DNA of 46,032 nt from Nitrospira sp. CR1.2. GTDB lineage: Bacteria > Nitrospirota > Nitrospiria > Nitrospirales > Nitrospiraceae. The stretch covers positions 1 through 46,032 of the forward strand of contig WIAG01000028.1 in assembly GCA_014055495.1 (NCBI GenBank). Reading direction: 5' to 3'. Positions within the stretch are counted from its first letter, which is position 1. The number at the start of each line of letters is the position of its first letter. Shown here in pieces: positions 3,034 through 18,872 of this stretch. A model generated the notes under the pieces. That model was not told where the DNA came from, searched no databases, and saw only the letters and a list, made by a program, of their open reading frames with translations. The translations under genes and the position numbers were made by a program.

Positions 3034-5127
3034 ATGTACAAGACCATTTATATCCCGGTCGACAATTCCGACCATTCCAATACAGCCGTTGATATCGGAG
3101 TTGAGCTGGCGAAAACCTATGGCTCTAAGATCGTGGGCAGCCACGTCTATGCCGCCAAGATGCACGATAAACGATTCAAGCAGATGGAAGCGGGGCTTCC
3201 TGAAGAGTATCACGACGAAAAGGAGCTGGATCGGCAGCGCCAGATTCACGATTCGCTGATCACTCGCGGACTCCAAATCATCACGGACTCCTACCTCGAC
3301 TACGTCGACAAGAAATGTAATGAAGCCAACCTGCCGGTGGAGCGTCGCTCACTGGAAGGCCGCAACTGGAAAGTCCTGGCTGAAGATATCAACACCAACG
3401 CTTACGACCTCGTGATCATGGGGGCCTTAGGAGTCGGTGCGGTCAAGGATAGTGTCATCGGCAGCAACACCGAACGGGTCCTGCGACGTGTCCGGAACTC
3501 CGACATGCTCATCATCAAGCAACCCCAACCGATGGGCAGCGGGAAAATCGTGGTCGCCGTGGACGGCAGTCCCTACTCCTTCGGCGGGCTCATGACGGGC
3601 CTGGCGCTCGGCAAAGCCTTCAACGTTCCGGTTGAGGTGATTTCCGCCTTCGACCCGTACTTCCACTACGCCGCCTTTCATAGCATCTCCGGCGTCCTGA
3701 ACGAAGAGGCCGGCAAGGTGTTCCGCTTCAAGGAGCAGGAAAAACTGCATGAAGAGGTGATCGACAGCGGGCTGGCGAAGATCTATCAATCACATCTCGA
3801 TATTTCCCGCGAAATCGCCCAAGCCGAACAAACCGACGTCAAAACCACGTTGCTGGACGGCAAAGCCTTCGAAAAGATCATTCAATACGTGCGGAAAGAG
3901 AACCCCTGGCTCCTCATTGTCGGCCGTATCGGTGTCCACAGCGATGAAGATATGGATATCGGGAGTAACACGGAGAACCTGCTCCGCTCCGCCTCCTGCA
4001 ATATCCTGGTCTCGAATCGGAAGTATGTTCCGCCGATTGATACGCAGGCGGAATACACCATTGCCTGGACGGAAGAAGCCTTGCGACGCATGGAGCGGAT
4101 TCCCGTATTTGCCCGCGGGGTCGCCAAGACTGCCATTCACCGCTACGCTATTGAAAAAGGACACACGATCATCAGCAATACGGTCGTCGACGCCGCAGTC
4201 GGACATATCCTCCCTAAGGGAGCAATGGATGCAATGCGGGCGCTCGGCGGGAACCTCGATGCCGCCGGAATTGATCGGGACAAGATGCAGGCCGACGATT
4301 CCGTCGCACAGGATTTGATGGGCTCGACCCTCAGCGGGATGATGACCCAGGTCGTGGAAGAGAAGCCGGCCCATAGCCCTGGAACACAGGCCTACCTGGA
4401 TCGCATGAGCCAGAACTATTTCGTCTGTGACGGCTGCGGCTATATCGGCAAGGGCGATACCCCGGTGAAGTGCCCGGTGTGTAGCGCTGACGGTGACCGA
4501 TTCAAACAGGTCGATAAGTCGATCTTTGAAGCGGCAGCCAAAGCAGAGGGCGGACTCGAGACCGATGTCGCCTACGACGACATCCCGATGCAATGGACGA
4601 AGGATGCCAAGGAAGCGATTCGCGCCGTTCCAGCGGGGTTCCAACGTCGACGGGCCAAAGCCAAAATCGAAAAGAACGCCCGCAAACTCGGCATGACGAC
4701 GATCACGCTCGAATACGCTGCCCCCATGATTCAGGAAGCGGCCGACGAAGATTACACACCGATTTTCGCCAACAAAGGTACCGGCACCGCACCTGAGCCG
4801 ACGTCAGCTGAAGCCAACGGAACGAGTGCCCATGTGACCAACGGCAACGGGGTCGAACAGACTGAAGCCCCCCTCTCCCCCTATACATGGACGCCTGATG
4901 CCCAGGGTCGCCTGGACCGCGCACCGGAAGGGTTCATGCGGGAATGTACCAAGGCCTTGATCGAGAAACACGCGGATAAGATCGGAACCACGGTCATCAC
5001 GTTGGAAGTGGCAACCGAGGGAATTGAGCAGGCCAAAGGCTACATGGCCGATGCCATGAAGACGGGCAATTTGAAGGATATGATTGCCAACCTGACCGGC
5101 TCCTCTAAGACCGGGGCGAACCGGTGA
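3034..5127 (+). CDS. Tandem universal stress protein fused to a rubredoxin-like zinc/iron module and three PCP_red-like domains
   Basis: 697 aa, far longer than the usual 140-300 aa Usp. Residues 1-165 and about 167-330 are two Usp domains with ATP-loop-type motifs ('MGALGVGAVKDSVIGSNTERV' shortened in copy two to 'GRIGVHSDEDMDIGSNTENL'). About 340-405 is a first PCP_red-like helical domain (IAWTEEALRRMERIP...). About 463-495 is a rubredoxin-like knuckle pair, CDGCGY...CPVC. About 518-575 (MQWTKDAKEAIRAVP) and 616-680 (YTWTPDAQGRLDRAP) are second and third PCP_red-like copies. PCP_red is otherwise best known as the C-terminal domain of the light-independent protochlorophyllide reductase B subunit. 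The Shine-Dalgarno sequence AGGAGG (3021-3026) is 7 nt from ATG. The next gene overlaps the stop (TGATG). A cytoplasmic redox- or tetrapyrrole-linked stress protein is an inference; the domain order is seen. Confidence 0.85.
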   Translation: MYKTIYIPVDNSDHSNTAVDIGVELAKTYGSKIVGSHVYAAKMHDKRFKQMEAGLPEEYHDEKELDRQRQIHDSLITRGLQIITDSYLDYVDKKCNEANLPVERRSLEGRNWKVLAEDINTNAYDLVIMGALGVGAVKDSVIGSNTERVLRRVRNSDMLIIKQPQPMGSGKIVVAVDGSPYSFGGLMTGLALGKAFNVPVEVISAFDPYFHYAAFHSISGVLNEEAGKVFRFKEQEKLHEEVIDSGLAKIYQSHLDISREIAQAEQTDVKTTLLDGKAFEKIIQYVRKENPWLLIVGRIGVHSDEDMDIGSNTENLLRSASCNILVSNRKYVPPIDTQAEYTIAWTEEALRRMERIPVFARGVAKTAIHRYAIEKGHTIISNTVVDAAVGHILPKGAMDAMRALGGNLDAAGIDRDKMQADDSVAQDLMGSTLSGMMTQVVEEKPAHSPGTQAYLDRMSQNYFVCDGCGYIGKGDTPVKCPVCSADGDRFKQVDKSIFEAAAKAEGGLETDVAYDDIPMQWTKDAKEAIRAVPAGFQRRRAKAKIEKNARKLGMTTITLEYAAPMIQEAADEDYTPIFANKGTGTAPEPTSAEANGTSAHVTNGNGVEQTEAPLSPYTWTPDAQGRLDRAPEGFMRECTKALIEKHADKIGTTVITLEVATEGIEQAKGYMADAMKTGNLKDMIANLTGSSKTGANR

Positions 5128-6530
5128 TGGGAAAGTCATTGCCGGTTCTCAATTTCCCCTTTCTGGGAGACAAGCTGGAGTCACTGCAGCAACAGATCTC
5201 CAAATTCATCTCTCCGACGTCTCCGGAAACAGGGCCGAACGACGGCCGGACCGTCGATGACTTCAAACCGTATCTCGTCGCGCTGAATCTCACCAAGCGC
5301 TGCAACCTTAAGTGTGATCACTGCTACCTCGACGCCACCACCAAAGCCGGCGGCGGTTCCGACGAGCTCAGCACGGAAGAATGTTTCCGCCTGATCGACC
5401 AAATCGCCGAGGTCAACAAGGGTTGCTTGCTTGTGATCACCGGCGGCGAGCCGCTCGTCCGACCCGACATTCTGGACATTGCCCGCCATGCCGTCGGACT
5501 CGGCTTTATCGTCGTCTTCGGTACCAACGGCATGTTGATCAACGATCGCATGGCCAAAACATTGGTCGAGATTGGTGTGATGGGCGTGGGGATCAGCATC
5601 GACTCTCTCAACCCTCAAAAACACGACCACTTTCGAGGTGTCCCCGGCGCATTTGCCAGCGCGTTGGCCGGGATCGAGGCCTGCAAACGCAACGGCCTCC
5701 AGTTCCAAGTGCATTTCAGCGCTCAACCCATGAACTATCAGGAATTGCCCCAGGTCGTGGAATGGGCCCATACGCTTGGCGCTCGCGTGCTGAATGTGTT
5801 CTTCATGGTCTGCACGGGGCGCGGCGAAGAACTGACCGACATCACGCCGCAGCAATATGAAGAAGTGCTCGGATATCTGGTCGCCTGTCAGGATCAATAC
5901 AAGGATATGCTGGTGCGGGCGCGCTGCGCGCCCCATTTCAAGCGGCTCGCGTATGAAAAAGATCCCCATTCTCCGCTCACCAAGGCAACGGGATACATGG
6001 GCGGCGGCTGTTTGGCTGGAACCAATTATGCGCGTGTGACGCCGAACGGAGAGCTCACCCCCTGCCCCTACATGCCGCTGTCGGCCGGAAATATCCGCGA
6101 GGCGAGCTTCGTGGATCTCTGGGAACGCTCGGATGTCTTCAACTCCTTTCGCTATCCCCAGCTGAAGGGGAAATGCGGCGATTGCGAATACACGGATATC
6201 TGCGGTGGTTGTCGGGCTCGCCCCTATGTCGACCACGGCGACTGGCTCGATGAGGATCAGTGGTGCCTCTACACGCCGAAAGGTGGCGAAAAAATCAAAG
6301 TCGCCTTTAATACGCCGGAGGAGACGGCCGTGGCGTGGGATGAAGCGTCGGAGCTTCGACTGAGTCGGATCCCCTACTTTCTCCGAGCCATGGTCAAAAA
6401 GGGTGTGGAACGGCATGCTCGGGAGAACGGCATCACTCTCATCACTATTGAGTTGATGGAAGAACTCCGGAAAAAGCGGTTCGGAAACGACGCCCCGGTC
6501 TTCAATTTTGACGTGAGAGGGAAAGAGTAA
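5127..6530 (+). CDS. Radical SAM/SPASM protein (AhbD/NirJ-like) with a C-terminal PCP_red-like domain
   Basis: 467 aa from ATG 5127, whose A is the last base of the preceding TGA stop (TGATG), implying translational coupling. The radical SAM cluster motif is C59-x3-C63-x2-C66 ('KRCNLKCDHC'), followed by 'TGGEPLVRPD'. A SPASM-type region near 290-390 has cysteines in 'GGCLAG', 'TPCPYMP', 'GKCGDCEYTDICGGCRARPY' and 'WCLY', enough for one or two auxiliary clusters. This resembles the AhbD/NirJ group of haem b and haem d1 synthesis and related peptide-modifying enzymes. Residues about 402-460 (VAWDEASELRLSRIP..., G-I-T-L-I-T) match the three PCP_red copies of the upstream gene, an unusual fusion. 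A role in tetrapyrrole chemistry is inferred; the precise reaction is not known from sequence alone. Confidence 0.8.
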   Translation: MGKSLPVLNFPFLGDKLESLQQQISKFISPTSPETGPNDGRTVDDFKPYLVALNLTKRCNLKCDHCYLDATTKAGGGSDELSTEECFRLIDQIAEVNKGCLLVITGGEPLVRPDILDIARHAVGLGFIVVFGTNGMLINDRMAKTLVEIGVMGVGISIDSLNPQKHDHFRGVPGAFASALAGIEACKRNGLQFQVHFSAQPMNYQELPQVVEWAHTLGARVLNVFFMVCTGRGEELTDITPQQYEEVLGYLVACQDQYKDMLVRARCAPHFKRLAYEKDPHSPLTKATGYMGGGCLAGTNYARVTPNGELTPCPYMPLSAGNIREASFVDLWERSDVFNSFRYPQLKGKCGDCEYTDICGGCRARPYVDHGDWLDEDQWCLYTPKGGEKIKVAFNTPEETAVAWDEASELRLSRIPYFLRAMVKKGVERHARENGITLITIELMEELRKKRFGNDAPVFNFDVRGKE

Positions 6531-6597
6531 GGGACAGACCGCCAGGGCGACCCTACGAACTTGGCGGCCATCGTCGCCCGCTCAGTATCACTAGACC

Positions 6598-7113
6598 ATG
6601 GATTCCGTACAAAGCCTTTTTCTCGATCTCAATCAGCTCATTCCCATCGTCAATCATTGGTTTCATCTGCTCTCTGCCGTCATCTGGATCGGCGGCCTGG
6701 CATTTCTCGTGATGGCCGTCACTCCTGGGCTTCGCGAGGGCGGGATTCCAAAAGAATACATCCGTCCGATCACCGACGCATTTTATCGGCACTACAAGCG
6801 GGTGGCGGGTATTCTGTTGGTGGTTCTGCTGTTCACCGGCGGCATCAACCTCCACTACGTCAATCAGATCTTCCTCTCACAGACCGGTCAAGGTTTACAG
6901 AATCATCCGAAGTACCTCTGGATTTTTTGCATCAAGCTGATCCTGGTCCTCTGCCTCCTGACCCTGTTCTTGTATACCGTCATCTTTAAGTCCGATGAGG
7001 ACGAAGAAGAGGAAGGCGAGACATACGAGTCGATTCCCTTCCAACGTGCCGCGCTCTGGATGGGCTTCTTCATCATCCTCTGCGCCGCGGCCATGAAACA
7101 CCTGCATCAGTAG
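6598..7113 (+). CDS. CopD-like four-helix membrane protein
   Basis: 171 aa with four predicted membrane segments, at about residues 20-42, 68-86, 104-127 and 150-167. The first contains 'HWFHLLSAVIWIGGLAFLVMAV', typical of the CopD/DUF2269 superfamily, in which a membrane His in a HLxxxxxWxGG context is thought to bind haem or copper. A charged loop 'DEDEEEEGE' separates helices 3 and 4, and the protein ends in 'AAMKHLHQ'. It starts 67 bp after the radical SAM gene on the same strand, so it is probably in the same operon. This would put a haem- or metal-binding membrane partner beside the two PCP_red proteins. HemJ-like protoporphyrinogen oxidase is an alternative but fits less well. Confidence 0.6.
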   Translation: MDSVQSLFLDLNQLIPIVNHWFHLLSAVIWIGGLAFLVMAVTPGLREGGIPKEYIRPITDAFYRHYKRVAGILLVVLLFTGGINLHYVNQIFLSQTGQGLQNHPKYLWIFCIKLILVLCLLTLFLYTVIFKSDEDEEEEGETYESIPFQRAALWMGFFIILCAAAMKHLHQ

Positions 7114-7447: not shown

Positions 7448-9223
7448 ATGCCCATCCGCTGGCCCCGTGCCTTGGCCCTGACTGCCCTTCTACTCGTACT
7501 TTCTCCCCTGCATTGCCGGGCAATCGATCCCGCCCCTGTCCCGACTCCAATCCACTCCCTGAACCAGGGGTTGTCCGACCAGGAATTACAGCAGTGGTAC
7601 CACCTGTCCGCCGGCACCCAGTTGATTCCCTATGATTGGCTTGTCGCCCTAGGCGATGACTCTCTCAGCAAACTATTCGCCGTGACAGGGCTGGTCGCGG
7701 ACCCGACTCATCCCGACAAACTTCCGGTCGGCTTTGCGAAGACGGAAGGGCCGAACGTCTCAGTGCCTCAGGCCGGATTCACGTGTTCGTTTTGTCACAC
7801 CACCCAGTTCAGCTACAAAGGTCAGCAGATCAAGATCGAGGGCGGCCCGTCACTCCAATACAACGCCAGATTCCTCAGCGCCCTCATCCAACGGCTGGGC
7901 GCGCTGATCCCCCCTGATTTGCCCGCATTCCTCCAGTCCCTGAAGGAGCAGGCCCCGCCGGAGCCGTTCAAGACATTCGCCACCCGCGTCTTGACCAATC
8001 GTGGAGAAGCCGTGACCGCCTACACGCTGACGAAGCTGGCGCAGGATGTGAGACTGCACACCCACGGGCTGATTTCCCGCAGCGGAAAAGACCTTTCCCC
8101 TGAGCAGTGGGGACCGGGCCGCTTCGATGCGCTCGGACGAGGCGGCAATATGGTGTTCACCATGCTCCATCCCGACAATCTCAGACCTGCAAATGCCCCA
8201 GTCAGTATTCCTCCGCTGTGGGGTGTGTGGGAATATGATTGGGTTCAGTGGGCCGGGTCGATTCAACATCCCTTGGCCAGAAATATCGGCCAGGTGATCG
8301 GCGTCAACGCCGGGCTCTTCAATTGGGCACGACCCGGCGCCGCCATTCCCTCGGACAAAAACACGCTGTTCCGCTCCTCCGTCGATGTCGATTCCCTCAC
8401 AACCCTCGAAGAATTGGCGCGCCGCCTGCCTCCACCGCAATGGCCGTCCGTCTTCCCACCCATCAATCGTGAGCTGGCTGCACGCGGGAAGGACCTGTAC
8501 CACGGCAACAAGGCCAAGGGGATCCCAAACCTCTGCGCCCATTGCCATGTCCCCGCAAGAATCTCCAACCCATCCGACAACGGCCCGAGCCTCCAGATCA
8601 CGATGGTGCCTCTCCAGGAAATCGGAACCGATCCTCTCTATCTGGAGAATTTTTCCCAACGCACCGTGGACACGAGTTTTCTGGGGCGTGGACGGATGTC
8701 GGCTCGAGAGGCGTCGGAGTATGTCACCACCGAATTGATGGCCGTGAACAATGCCAATACACCTGCCTATCGAAGCCGGCCCAACATCTGGCGAGATACG
8801 GCACAATACATCGCTCGACCGCATGTGGCGATATGGGCCACCGCTCCGTACCTCCACAATGGGTCAATCCCGAACCTCTACGAGCTCCTCTCTCCCACAC
8901 GGGAACGACGCTCGTGTTTCGCGCTGAGTCCGAACATGGAGTTTGACGCCGTGAAGGTGGGGTTTGTCGTCGAAGACTGTACCGGCTTCCCTCCTTCGAC
9001 CAATCAACCAGCACGATTCGAATTCAAAACCGTATTGCCCGGCAATAGCAACCGCGGCCATGAATTTACCAATACACCGGATTGTGACAGCGCAAAAGGC
9101 AACGGGGTATTGGGATGCGAACTACCGGCGGATGACCGTTGGGCCATCATCGAGTATTTAAAGACCTGTGATCTTGACCGATTGGTGTTGCTGAATACGC
9201 GGGCTTGCCGGAGTCTGGACTAG
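7448..9223 (+). CDS. RoxA-like dihaem c-type cytochrome (MauG/peroxidase superfamily), secreted
   Basis: 591 aa with a Sec signal peptide (hydrophobic core 'ALALTALLLVLSPL', cleavage near residue 25), so periplasmic or exported. There are two haem c sites: C113-S-F-C-H117 and C363-A-H-C-H367. An N-terminal 'YHLSAGTQLIPYDWLVAL' block, 'GPGRFDALGRGGN', and the late 'APYLHNGSIPNLYELLSP' with 'EFDAVKVGFV' match the RoxA-like branch of the bacterial dihaem peroxidase superfamily. That branch includes the rubber (polyisoprene) oxygenase RoxA as well as many uncharacterised cytochromes. The length fits RoxA homologs (about 600-680 aa). A good AGGAG precedes the ATG by 8 nt. Peroxidase or dioxygenase activity cannot be told from the sequence. 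It sits upstream of a hybrid kinase and a FadL porin on the same strand. Confidence 0.7.
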   Translation: MPIRWPRALALTALLLVLSPLHCRAIDPAPVPTPIHSLNQGLSDQELQQWYHLSAGTQLIPYDWLVALGDDSLSKLFAVTGLVADPTHPDKLPVGFAKTEGPNVSVPQAGFTCSFCHTTQFSYKGQQIKIEGGPSLQYNARFLSALIQRLGALIPPDLPAFLQSLKEQAPPEPFKTFATRVLTNRGEAVTAYTLTKLAQDVRLHTHGLISRSGKDLSPEQWGPGRFDALGRGGNMVFTMLHPDNLRPANAPVSIPPLWGVWEYDWVQWAGSIQHPLARNIGQVIGVNAGLFNWARPGAAIPSDKNTLFRSSVDVDSLTTLEELARRLPPPQWPSVFPPINRELAARGKDLYHGNKAKGIPNLCAHCHVPARISNPSDNGPSLQITMVPLQEIGTDPLYLENFSQRTVDTSFLGRGRMSAREASEYVTTELMAVNNANTPAYRSRPNIWRDTAQYIARPHVAIWATAPYLHNGSIPNLYELLSPTRERRSCFALSPNMEFDAVKVGFVVEDCTGFPPSTNQPARFEFKTVLPGNSNRGHEFTNTPDCDSAKGNGVLGCELPADDRWAIIEYLKTCDLDRLVLLNTRACRSLD

Positions 9224-14719: not shown

Positions 14720-16813
14720 ATGCGTCTTCGAATCCATCGGCTCTACGCCTTCTCTCACACCCCAGCCCCACTTGCACCCCTCCATCAGGTACAGAAGTCT
14801 TTCCCAACTCCGACAATTAGACGGCGAGTCCGGCTGCCGGCCCTCTGCGTCGGGCTCATCAGTCTCTGCTGGACCACCCTCGGTCAAGCTCAGGGTCCGT
14901 CATTCTCCGGTACGAGTGAATCGAATCACATACCCGCCGGGGAAGAACTCGAGTTTCTCAAGGAAGAGGAAACCGTCAGCATCGCCACGCGGCACGAACA
15001 GCCCATTTCCCAAGCTCCCTCCAATGTCTACGTCATCACGGACGAAGACATCCGTCATTCCGGCGCCACCGACATCCCGACGATTCTCCGCCGCGTGCCC
15101 GGTTTGGACGTGATGCAGGTCACAGGCGCCGATTTCAATGTCAGCGCACGAGGCGACAACCAGCTATTCGCCAACAAACTCCTCGTGATGGTGGACGGCC
15201 GCTCCATCTACATCGACGGCCAGGGTCTGGTGTTCTGGAAATCGCTCCCGGTCACCTTGACGGAAATCAAACGGATCGAAGTGCTCAAAGGGCCGGCTTC
15301 CGTCGTGTATGGATTCAATGCCTTTGACGGCGTCATCAATATCATCACCAAGTCGGCGCAAGAGATGAAGGGCACGACGTTGCAGTTCGGCGGCGGGGAA
15401 CTCGGCACCATCTCCAGTTCCGCCGTCCAGGCTGGATCAGCGGGCAAACTCGACTACCGTCTCTCCTTCGGCCATGACCAGAATCAACAATGGCGCAACC
15501 ATGACGCTCTCGCCTTCCGGTCGAACAAGTTCAACGTGCAGACGCAGTACAATTTCTCCGGCGACGCCACCTTACGCGTGGCCGGAGGTTTCATCGATAC
15601 CAATCGCTTCGACGGCCCCGTCTCCAACGTGCAGATTCCGCAATCGCAGTTCAACCAAGGCTATACCGACGTGCAGTACCAGTACCGCAATTTTTCCGTG
15701 CGTGGATGGTGGCAGGGCAACGACATTCCCGTCGACTCCGCCGCACATCCGCTCCTCTCCCGATTTGTGCGACAGACCAACGCAACGGGCGGATCCAATC
15801 TGTCTTTCTCCACGAATACCTATAACATAGAGGCACAACACAGCCTCGAATTCGGCTCGACCAACCGACTGAGTTATGGCGTCAATTATCGTTACAACAC
15901 GGTCGACGGCGCAGCCGTCTCCGAATTGGGGCGAGAAGATCGTCTCGGGGTCCATCTCCAGGACGAGTGGAAAATTCGTCCATCTCTCACTCTCGTGGCG
16001 GGGGTCCGCTACGATTTGCACACCAGAATCAACGGCACCTGGAGTCCGCGTGTGGCCCTCGTCTACAACCTAACCCCGGAGCATACGTTTCGCATCAGCG
16101 GATCCGTCGCCTATCGCCCCCCGACCCTGTTCGAGTCAAATCTCGACCTGCGAATCATGCCGACGACCCCGCCCTTGTTTGCCCCCATTCCACTCTTCGG
16201 TTCACAGAAGCTCAATCCGGAACAGATTATTTCTTATGAGGCTGGCTATCAAGGCTGGTGGCTGAAACACCGGCTTCGAACCAGACTCGATGTGTTCTTC
16301 AATCACCTCTCCGATTTGATCAATTTTCAAACCGTCGGTACCACCCGAACCCTCATCAACGGAGGAGAAGCCGATATCTACGGAACCGAGGCAGGCTTTG
16401 AATTCCTCGCCACCAGATGGCTCAGCGGCTTTGCGAATGCGTCCTACCAAAAGATCGGACAGACCTTCACCGGCGTCTCGCGACGAGGCGGCCCGGACTG
16501 GAAAGCGAATGTAGGCCTCCGCGGTGACTGGGACAACGGCCTCAACGGAGAAATCGCAGTCCATTACGTGGCAAGCGCCACCTATCCGCTGATCGAATTA
16601 TTCACCCAGCTCGCGCCGGCGCTCCCCGCGCCTACGAGTCAAACGGTCGACAGTTATACCCTGCTCAATCTTCGCGGCGGCTATCGGTTCTGGCACGACA
16701 AGGCCGAAGTGGCCGTTTCCGTCATGAACGCCCTCAATGACCGCCACAAGGAACACCCCCTTGGCGACATACTTGGTAGTCGGGTCATGGGCTGGGTCAC
16801 CATCCGATTGTGA
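14720..16813 (+). CDS. TonB-dependent outer membrane receptor A
   Basis: 697 aa. A hydrophobic export core is at about residues 38-58 ('ALCVGLISLCWTTLG', then AQG), which leaves a long N-region of about 37 residues; a shorter true start cannot be excluded. The plug domain at about 75-210 has 'SNVYVITDEDIRHSGATDIPTILRR', 'LVMVDGRSIYIDG', 'IKRIEVLKGPASVVYG' and 'NAFDGVINIITK'. The 22-strand barrel runs to the C-terminal 'GWVTIRL', ending in an aliphatic residue. TonB receptors import iron complexes, vitamin B12, sugars and other large solutes. The substrate is unknown, and no TonB, ExbB or ExbD gene is seen here. The gene is a tandem paralog of the next one, with nearly the same plug. Confidence 0.85.
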   Translation: MRLRIHRLYAFSHTPAPLAPLHQVQKSFPTPTIRRRVRLPALCVGLISLCWTTLGQAQGPSFSGTSESNHIPAGEELEFLKEEETVSIATRHEQPISQAPSNVYVITDEDIRHSGATDIPTILRRVPGLDVMQVTGADFNVSARGDNQLFANKLLVMVDGRSIYIDGQGLVFWKSLPVTLTEIKRIEVLKGPASVVYGFNAFDGVINIITKSAQEMKGTTLQFGGGELGTISSSAVQAGSAGKLDYRLSFGHDQNQQWRNHDALAFRSNKFNVQTQYNFSGDATLRVAGGFIDTNRFDGPVSNVQIPQSQFNQGYTDVQYQYRNFSVRGWWQGNDIPVDSAAHPLLSRFVRQTNATGGSNLSFSTNTYNIEAQHSLEFGSTNRLSYGVNYRYNTVDGAAVSELGREDRLGVHLQDEWKIRPSLTLVAGVRYDLHTRINGTWSPRVALVYNLTPEHTFRISGSVAYRPPTLFESNLDLRIMPTTPPLFAPIPLFGSQKLNPEQIISYEAGYQGWWLKHRLRTRLDVFFNHLSDLINFQTVGTTRTLINGGEADIYGTEAGFEFLATRWLSGFANASYQKIGQTFTGVSRRGGPDWKANVGLRGDWDNGLNGEIAVHYVASATYPLIELFTQLAPALPAPTSQTVDSYTLLNLRGGYRFWHDKAEVAVSVMNALNDRHKEHPLGDILGSRVMGWVTIRL

Positions 16814-16835
16814 GCGGTCAATGAGGCAGACCGTC

Positions 16836-18872
16836 ATGAAACGCCCTTGGCACCTACTCCTCGTCGTGGTCTTGTTGCTCATCCTCAGGAGTATCGCCGC
16901 GGCGGAACCAGGCTCAGTACGCTTCGAGGAGTCGCTGTCCTTCCCTGTCAGCAACGACCTGGAACTGCTCAAGGAAGAAGAAACCGTGAGCATCGCCTCG
17001 CGTTACGAACAACCCATTTCTCAAGCGCCGTCGAACGTCTACGTGGTCACCGACGAGGATATTCGGCAGTCCGGAGCCACCGACCTTCCAACCGTCCTGC
17101 GGCGCATTCCAGGATTGGAGGTGATGCAGATGACCGGCGCCGATTTCAACGTCAGCGCCAGGGGAGGCAACCAACCATTCGCGAACAAAATGCTGGTCAT
17201 GGTGGACGGACGCTCGATCTACCTCGATGTGCAGGGAAACGTGTTCTGGAAATCCCTCCCGATCACGATTCCCGAGATTAAGCGCATCGAAGTGCTGAAG
17301 GGTCCCGCGTCCGCCATGTATGGATTCAATGCCTTCGACGGGGTCATCAACATCATCACCAAGTCACCGGAAGAGATGAAGGGAACGACGCTGCAATTCG
17401 GCGGGGGCGAACAAGGAACCGTCAGCAGCGCAGCGGTCCATGCCGGCACCATGGGCAAGTTCGGCTATCGCCTTTCGGTCGGCCGGGATCAGACGCAGCA
17501 ATGGAGAGAGCGCGACGCCCTTGCGTTTCGTGCCCACAAATTCAATGCACAAACGGACTATGCCCTGTCCTCAACATCGAAGCTGCAAATATCCGGGGGG
17601 CTGGTCGAAACGAATCGGTACGACGGCCAAGTCGGGGAAGTGACCAGCAATTCGATTCGTCCTTCCTTCGGCTACGCCAACGCGCTCTACGAACAGGGAG
17701 ACTTTCTCATTCGCGCGTGGTGGTCTGGATACACAGACCACGCCACCATCAGCCCTCTTCCCCAACTGACCGACTTCCTCAGCGTGACGGACCGCAATGG
17801 CGTATCGACGAATCCCTTTTCCGGTAATACGTACAATGTCGACATGCAGCACGGGGTCAATCTCGGCGCAAAGAATCGACTGCTGTATGGTGCAAACTAT
17901 CGGCACAACTCACTGTCCAGTCCCGCCATCGATCAATTCAGCCGAGAAAACCGGTTGGGTCTGTTTCTACAAGATGAATGGCGGGCCACACCGACCCTGA
18001 CGATCGTGGCAGGTCTGCGCTATGATCTTCACACCCAAATCAACGGCACCTGGAGCCCACGGGTAGCCATTTTGTATCAACCGGTGGAGGGACACACCTT
18101 TCATCTTTCAGGCTCCGCAGCCTATCGGCCGCCGACTCTCTTTGAATCGCATCAGGACCAGCGAGTCACAACGCCGAACCAGGCCCCCCCACCCACCTTC
18201 ATCACTCTTCCGGTGACGGGCTCGACGAGACTTGCGCCTGAACAGATCTCCTCCTATGAGGCCGGGTATCAAGGCTGGTATTGGAAACATCGCCTCCGCG
18301 TACGGGCGGATCTCTTTTTCAACCATATCTCCGATCTCATCGGCAGTCGCATCACGAACACCGGGGCCTCGGCATTCGTCAACGACCCCGGCTCTGCCGA
18401 TATCTACGGAGGCGAGGCGGGCATGGAGTTTCTGGCGAGTCGTTGGCTGTCCGGCTTCGCCAACTACGCGTATGAGGAAATCGGTCAGTCGTTTAGTGGG
18501 ACGGTCAGACGGGGCGCGCCCCGCTCGAAAGTCAGCGCCGGGCTCAGAACGGAATGGGAAAACGGTCTGACCGGAGAAATCAGCTACTACCATGTCGGAG
18601 CGGCCGCCTACCCTCTCGCACAAAGCTTCACCAATTTGGGGACGAGTCCCGCCACCGGAATTATCGTCCCGAACGAGCGCGTCGGCAGTTACAACCTGCT
18701 CAATCTCCGCGCCGGCTACCGGTTCTGGCAGGAGAAGGCGGCGGCAGGCTACCTGCGCGACGCCGAAGTGGCGGTCTCCGTGTTTAATGCACTCAATGCT
18801 GAGCACAAAGAACACCCGCTGGGGGACTTCATCGCCCGGCGGGTCATGGGATGGTTGACACTTCGATTTTGA
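16836..18872 (+). CDS. TonB-dependent outer membrane receptor B (tandem paralog of A)
   Basis: 678 aa from ATG 16836, preceded by GAGG at 9 nt and followed by the signal peptide MKRPWHLLLVVVLLLI, cleaved near residue 22 after 'IAAA'. ATG 16821 is an alternative start. The plug repeats receptor A almost residue by residue ('ELLKEEETVSIASRYEQPISQAPSNVYVVTDEDIRQSG', quoted in parts: ELLKEEETVSIASRYEQPIS, then QAPSNVYVVTDEDIRQSG). The barrel diverges more in the loops, for example around residues 300-330 and 440-480, where substrate contacts usually lie. It ends in 'RVMGWLTLRF' with the terminal Phe typical of outer membrane barrels. It starts 22 bp after receptor A's stop, so the two are probably one transcript. 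A recent duplication with divergent specificity is inferred. Confidence 0.85.
   Translation: MKRPWHLLLVVVLLLILRSIAAAEPGSVRFEESLSFPVSNDLELLKEEETVSIASRYEQPISQAPSNVYVVTDEDIRQSGATDLPTVLRRIPGLEVMQMTGADFNVSARGGNQPFANKMLVMVDGRSIYLDVQGNVFWKSLPITIPEIKRIEVLKGPASAMYGFNAFDGVINIITKSPEEMKGTTLQFGGGEQGTVSSAAVHAGTMGKFGYRLSVGRDQTQQWRERDALAFRAHKFNAQTDYALSSTSKLQISGGLVETNRYDGQVGEVTSNSIRPSFGYANALYEQGDFLIRAWWSGYTDHATISPLPQLTDFLSVTDRNGVSTNPFSGNTYNVDMQHGVNLGAKNRLLYGANYRHNSLSSPAIDQFSRENRLGLFLQDEWRATPTLTIVAGLRYDLHTQINGTWSPRVAILYQPVEGHTFHLSGSAAYRPPTLFESHQDQRVTTPNQAPPPTFITLPVTGSTRLAPEQISSYEAGYQGWYWKHRLRVRADLFFNHISDLIGSRITNTGASAFVNDPGSADIYGGEAGMEFLASRWLSGFANYAYEEIGQSFSGTVRRGAPRSKVSAGLRTEWENGLTGEISYYHVGAAAYPLAQSFTNLGTSPATGIIVPNERVGSYNLLNLRAGYRFWQEKAAAGYLRDAEVAVSVFNALNAEHKEHPLGDFIARRVMGWLTLRF

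Follow-up and report, generated by a model that had tools for sequence, protein, structure and literature searches.

PCP_red domains on a Usp protein and an AhbD/NirJ2-like radical SAM enzyme of a nitrite-oxidising Nitrospira

The window, meaning the whole 46,032-nucleotide stretch of Nitrospira DNA analysed here, carries near its start three consecutive forward-strand genes. The first (3034..5127) encodes a 697-aa protein in which Pfam recognizes, in order, two Usp domains, a PCP_red domain, a rubredoxin-like stretch and two further PCP_red domains, and 40 of 41 relatives have its orthologue. Its PCP_red domains lie at 4066..4197 (residues ~345-388; 53.7 bits), 4594..4713 (residues ~521-560; 40.5 bits) and 4888..5013 (residues ~617-660; 37.1 bits), and these three stretches together match PF08369 with 111 bits and an E value of 2.4e-32. 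The rubredoxin-like four-Cys knuckle (RUBY_RBDX, PF21349; 4420..4506, residues 463-491) scores 26.8 bits, marginally above its curated cut-off of 26.5, and in the predicted model it also matches nigerythrin by Foldseek; Usp homologues of one family (f8) lack the knuckle. A proteome paper on N. marina has low oxygen raising Usp proteins there, with no tie to the Usp gene of the window. The second gene (5127..6530), called rSAM-PCP below, begins at the ATG at 5127 within the overlap TGATG (5125-5129) and encodes a radical SAM domain (5286..5765; Pfam 84.8 bits) with a CxxxCxxC motif (Cys 59, 63 and 66 counted from that ATG), a SPASM auxiliary iron-sulphur domain (6009..6188; Pfam 40.7 bits) and a C-terminal PCP_red domain (6336..6470; residues ~405-449; 53.2 bits with E 3e-14 in one Pfam search, 57.6 bits in another). 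A four-helix membrane protein (6598..7113) with one invariant His in its first helix is the product of the third. A preliminary description had proposed four PCP_red domains, split three to one between the Usp and the radical SAM protein, and all four exceed the curated PF08369 cut-off of 32.5 bits (37.1-57.6 bits) essentially at the residues claimed; the TGATG coupling and the rubredoxin-like knuckle that it had read from the letters are likewise there. The membrane protein does follow the pair as described, but its CopD score (PF05425, 23.9 bits) falls below the curated cut-off of 32.1, and CopD-like is kept here as a weak, sequence-based label.

Elsewhere in the window, positions 346-2868, 5′ of the Usp gene, hold an mpqE-type methyltransferase gene (NF052510, 414 bits, cut-off 335) and a gene for a B12-binding radical SAM protein whose best match, the slr0320 family, is sub-threshold (453 versus 775 bits), and the order in which these two precede the Usp gene is kept in dozens of Nitrospira loci. 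Just downstream of the three genes, at 7448-9223, is a protein of the di-haem cytochrome c peroxidase type (NF040606, 390 bits), part of which weakly resembles RoxA, and at 14720-18872 two similar neighbouring receptor-like proteins of 697 and 711 aa look, judged by eye, like a TonB-dependent receptor duplicated in tandem.

PCP_red is best known from a chlorophyll-making enzyme, where it is the C-terminal domain of the DPOR B subunit, DPOR-B (BchB/ChlB; PDB 2KRU, 2YNM). Pfam, PDB profile and model comparison all identify the domain of the window proteins with it and with the stand-alone Asr4154 (2L09). When a profile made from the nine strongest PCP_red domains of the window genome was compared with the PDB, the matches with E below 0.001 were DPOR B subunits and Asr4154 only, a recovery independent of the Pfam search, and a predicted PCP_red domain superposes on 2YNM with an rmsd of 1.0 over 45 columns. 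Chance resemblance was ruled out by E values from 1e-14 to 1e-32 together with this independent recovery from the PDB. Oxidored_nitro (PF00148; DPOR/nitrogenase) gave no match anywhere in the genome, which accordingly has no DPOR subunit B by this measure; a remnant of photosynthesis genes was rejected on this ground as the source of the domains. Unlike the situation in DPOR-B, the nitrogenase-like subunit is thus absent, and PCP_red is instead found on Usp, radical SAM and Zn-ribbon proteins, and repeated, with up to four copies per protein. The aligned PCP_red sequences contain no conserved residue of the haem-ligand or metal-ligand kind. Structure prediction, also suggested earlier, confirmed the PCP_red and rubredoxin folds; the AlphaFold models are of low overall confidence (mean pLDDT 57 and 59.5) and are good for that confirmation only, the next-best Foldseek matches after these folds being to AAA+ small domains. 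Family f7 has short stand-alone PCP_red proteins of about 65 aa, Asr4154-like, adjoining a cupin-like gene (L091, L092).

The genome to which the window belongs is that of a nitrite-oxidising, non-photosynthetic Nitrospira, with Nitrospira defluvii and N. moscoviensis as the nearest named relatives found, and it has ten PCP_red domains in four proteins, one of the ten being sub-cut-off. Six of them, additional to the four already proposed, are on a contig other than that of the window and belong to Z, a Zn-ribbon protein with two PCP_red copies whose gene is directly 3′ of a gene for an Mrp/ApbC-type ATPase, and to Q, a 331-aa protein composed of four PCP_red copies. A search of the genome with the AhbD model (E 1e-20) yielded a single AhbD/NirJ-type radical SAM protein, rSAM-PCP itself, and hence no AhbC partner of the siroheme-dependent haem pathway. 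Genes hemE, hemH and hemY are grouped on one contig and there are two genes of the chlorite-dismutase/ChdC family, so that, judged by gene content, haem b could apparently be made all the way (HemE, HemH, HemY, ChdC-like) without rSAM-PCP, whose product would then have to be something else. Plasmid searches brought up only ordinary Usp relatives or TIGR04053/NirJ-type radical SAM relatives, none shown with PCP_red.

Conservation was followed in a sample of 118 Nitrospirota genomes, whose families carry the anonymous labels f1-f25. PF08369 is present in 62 of the 118, and in class Nitrospiria 9-12 PCP_red domains are listed for every sampled genome. Most comparisons of the Usp protein within the genus give about 95% identity, which falls to about 71% for the order's most distant family. 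In every judgeable genome, from several classes, the Usp-PCP and rSAM-PCP genes are adjacent on the same strand, the exceptions being contig ends (G011, G047) and family f4, where the CopD-like gene follows Usp-PCP with no rSAM between. A neighbourhood of all three genes had been expected from the preliminary description; the Usp/rSAM pair holds across Nitrospirota, but the CopD-like gene was found beside it only within class Nitrospiria, in which it is third at a conserved position. The usual order in Nitrospira is mpqE, B12-rSAM, Usp-PCP, rSAM-PCP, CopD-like, and in the gene maps of more distant families that were inspected mpqE does not adjoin the pair. A Usp gene without PCP_red sits 5′ of rSAM-PCP in f21 and f22. 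That the PCP_red proteins act together is argued from the fusion of rSAM-PCP to the equivalent of the whole Q protein in f14 and from clusters in f5 and f6, the latter with all four PCP_red genes and the CopD-like gene within about 8 kb (G141). Side by side with these arrangements, a Haem_oxygenas_2/TENA-type gene lies between Z and Q in f6 (L082:8566-9252) and f5 (L041:1870-2640), and in f21 rSAM-PCP is followed by a protein of some 245 aa that is conserved but has no Pfam match (L183:7560-8291, L181:6888-7649, L185:4951-5718). A profile search of contigs for the pair had Nitrospira-type loci as all of its best 80 matches, and the openly licensed literature searched held no description of the gene set.

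rSAM-PCP scores best against NirJ2 (TIGR04055, 318.8 bits) and AhbD (TIGR04545, 315 bits), both with an equivalog cut-off of 500 that it stays well under. It has the same radical SAM/SPASM architecture and the same iron-sulphur cysteines: those of CxxxCxxC are invariant in 33 of 33 aligned rows, 11 cluster cysteine positions are common to 19 rSAM-PCP and 11 AhbD rows, and Cys 267, 295, 313, 350, 353, 359, 362 and 380 of rSAM-PCP are shared with AhbD. Unlike AhbD and NirJ2 it has the extra C-terminal PCP_red, and 12 positions are fixed differently from AhbD, among them C229, present in 19/19 rSAM-PCP and 0/11 AhbD sequences. In a tree rSAM-PCP is a sister clade to the AhbD of other Nitrospirota, the AhbD clade having support of 100/100, and orthology to AhbD was ruled out by score and clade. 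AhbD itself occurs in other families of the phylum, in which AhbD-like genes adjoin hemE and, in one case, also hemH and the start of hemY, and in several lineages (f8, f21, f22 and probably f12) an AhbD-like radical SAM protein exists alongside rSAM-PCP.

Other lineages join PCP_red directly to, or place it beside, enzymes of tetrapyrrole type. It is fused to an AhbD-like radical SAM protein in f12 (L196; 488 bits against the AhbD cut-off of 500) and stands at the N-terminus of a protein of the ChdC/HemQ (chlorite dismutase) family in f15 (L089:6036-7061, L090:6551-7678), in which the proximal His is lost at the aligned position, whereas the ChdC-like protein of the window genome has no PCP_red. 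The order in f14 is Usp-PCP, rSAM-PCP, protoporphyrinogen oxidase, the last (TIGR00562, 290.7 and 305.2 bits in two genomes, cut-off 97.85) starting 58 bp after rSAM-PCP in L083, and in f6 a single contig has genes for protoporphyrinogen oxidase, a bd-like oxidase, cytochromes, DUF420 and Mrp along with all the PCP_red genes.

A bd-like oxidase is a recurrent neighbour. In f6, f12, f13, f14 and f22 PCP_red genes are near clusters of a bd-like oxidase (Cyt_bd_oxida_I), c-type cytochromes and a cytochrome c/ethylbenzene-dehydrogenase-type subunit, the last not being seen on the stretch read in f13 and f22. The gene for the Zn-ribbon protein with two PCP_red copies adjoins bd-like_3/bd-like_4 in N. 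defluvii and in relatives belonging to two families, and in f3 it adjoins a DUF420 gene. In their bd-like oxidase, their c-type cytochromes and their cytochrome c plus ethylbenzene-dehydrogenase-type subunit the clusters near PCP_red genes match, by kind of component, the bd-like oxidase/alt_NxrC cluster type reported from Nitrospira, Nitrospina and anammox bacteria (PMC6606698), and in the papers searched no mention of PCP_red proteins or rSAM-PCP was found. With presence of rSAM-PCP called at 430 bits or more, 44 of the 118 genomes have both it and a bd-like oxidase, two only the radical SAM gene, one only the oxidase and 71 neither, so that 115 of 118 agree and the two are together in 44 of the 47 genomes having either; in the single genome with the oxidase alone, its rSAM lies past a contig end. 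Counted by genus outside family Nitrospiraceae, 11 have both, two only rSAM-PCP, none only the oxidase and 42 neither. The respective p values, 8.5e-29 for genomes and 6.5e-10 for these genera, ignore relatedness, and the match holds also inside the mixed families f14, f21 and f22. As a control, heme-copper oxidase (COX1) shows no such match, being present in 16/46 genomes with rSAM-PCP and 45/72 of the others, and this different distribution led to rejection of rSAM-PCP as a mere marker of aerobic life. One genome of f4 (G027) stands apart. It has bd-like_3 (73.5% identical to that of N. defluvii) as well as Usp-PCP, Z, Mrp, CopD-like, DUF420 and ChdC genes, and in the approximately 84% of its assembly that was examined there is no rSAM-PCP, no Q, no bd-like_4 and no counterpart of a 634-aa bd-like paralogue known from contig C151 of the window genome. 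Its rSAM may be in the remaining ~16%; otherwise bd-like_3 can do without the rSAM/Q branch, which would then serve a different paralogue.

The explanation that we put forward tentatively, at a little under an even chance, is that Usp-PCP and rSAM-PCP are the core of an undescribed Nitrospirota PCP_red set that handles tetrapyrroles (haem) so that bd-like oxidase/alt-NxrC cytochrome complexes can mature. From domain identities, gene conservation, fusions, neighbourhoods and co-occurrence we infer both its biochemical steps and a physical complex. PCP_red would be a small module of tetrapyrrole enzymes for binding, presenting or docking their substrate, as it presumably is at the C-terminus of DPOR-B too; rSAM-PCP would modify the side chains of an iron-tetrapyrrole by 5′-deoxyadenosyl radical chemistry, with the Usp-rubredoxin protein as its regulatory or redox (electron-donating) partner; and the CopD-like, Mrp ATPase and Z proteins would bring the cofactor, or its iron-sulphur clusters, to the membrane complex. 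The tetrapyrrole part is favoured by the proximity of rSAM-PCP to AhbD and NirJ2, its AhbD-type cysteines and its standing as the sole AhbD-type radical SAM protein of the genome, as well as by the fusions in f12 and f15 and the protoporphyrinogen oxidase gene adjacent in f14 and on the same contig in f6; the part concerning bd-like complexes is favoured by the neighbourhoods of the PCP_red genes and by the 44-genome co-occurrence. The redox or tetrapyrrole system surmised in the preliminary description gains indirect support from the AhbD kinship of rSAM-PCP and from the same fusions, adjacencies and bd-like linkage, but G027 keeps bd-like_3 with no detectable rSAM-PCP, and this exception lowers confidence in the explanation. 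It is weakened further by the lack of a conserved haem ligand in PCP_red, the lost proximal His of the f15 fusion, the haem b route that seems complete without rSAM-PCP, the phylogenetic non-independence of the co-occurrence counts and the low confidence of the structure models. A more specific version, in which rSAM-PCP makes an undescribed iron-tetrapyrrole cofactor, a modified haem, for the nitrite oxidisers' bd-like complexes and PCP_red is a module of general use that presents tetrapyrroles both here and in photosynthetic DPOR, is doubtful.

Much of the same evidence can be turned towards protein-protein docking as the only role of PCP_red, the set then being a scaffold for bd-like/alt-NxrC assembly (Mrp as iron-sulphur carrier, Zn-ribbon, Usp and multi-PCP proteins) and the radical SAM enzyme modifying a protein side chain. 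Repetition of the domain in non-enzymes (Q with its four copies, the Zn-ribbon proteins, Usp), the want of a conserved metal or haem ligand, the position of Mrp directly 5′ of the Zn-ribbon/PCP_red gene and the f14 fusion of the radical SAM protein to a whole Q would all suit such a scaffold, which we nevertheless consider unlikely: the enzymes with fused PCP_red (DPOR-B, AhbD-like rSAM, ChdC-family) are of tetrapyrrole type, which suggests tetrapyrrole handling over bare docking, and rSAM-PCP is itself in the AhbD/NirJ2 group. Keeping to tetrapyrroles, rSAM-PCP might simply decarboxylate coproheme without oxygen, supplying ordinary haem b under conditions in which ChdC is short of oxygen or peroxide. 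AhbD can take the place of ChdC in the coproporphyrin pathway (PMC7242693), a separate AhbD is absent from Nitrospiria, and the sister-clade position, the identical cluster cysteines and the hemE (once hemH and hemY) surroundings of AhbD elsewhere in the phylum fit this role; it becomes quite improbable in the light of the lineages that have an AhbD-like protein as well as rSAM-PCP, the 12 fixed differences including C229, and the score of 315 against 500. That rSAM-PCP matures a peptide (RiPP) or a quinone, its tetrapyrrole links being coincidental, is highly improbable. Peptides are frequent substrates of SPASM radical SAM enzymes and the Nitrospira genes follow mpqE, which is a methyl-plastoquinone methyltransferase gene; against this, the Usp, rSAM-PCP and CopD-like genes leave almost no intergenic space for a precursor peptide and none was noticed there, mpqE is not kept beside the pair in the distant families inspected, and the nearest families are haem enzymes.

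PF08369 is among the most prevalent phototroph marker families in a recent trait study (PMC12815261). With up to 12 copies in Nitrospirota, and a window genome that has PCP_red and no DPOR, the family taken alone would be misleading as such a marker, and PCP_red, so far viewed as a domain of the chlorophyll pathway, may belong more widely to tetrapyrrole enzymes. Nitrospira are believed to rely on bd-like oxidases, of which neither the role nor the composition is settled (PMC6606698), and most of the sampled Nitrospira genomes have no heme-copper oxidase; for the maturation of these bd-like oxidase complexes the gene set would supply named candidates.
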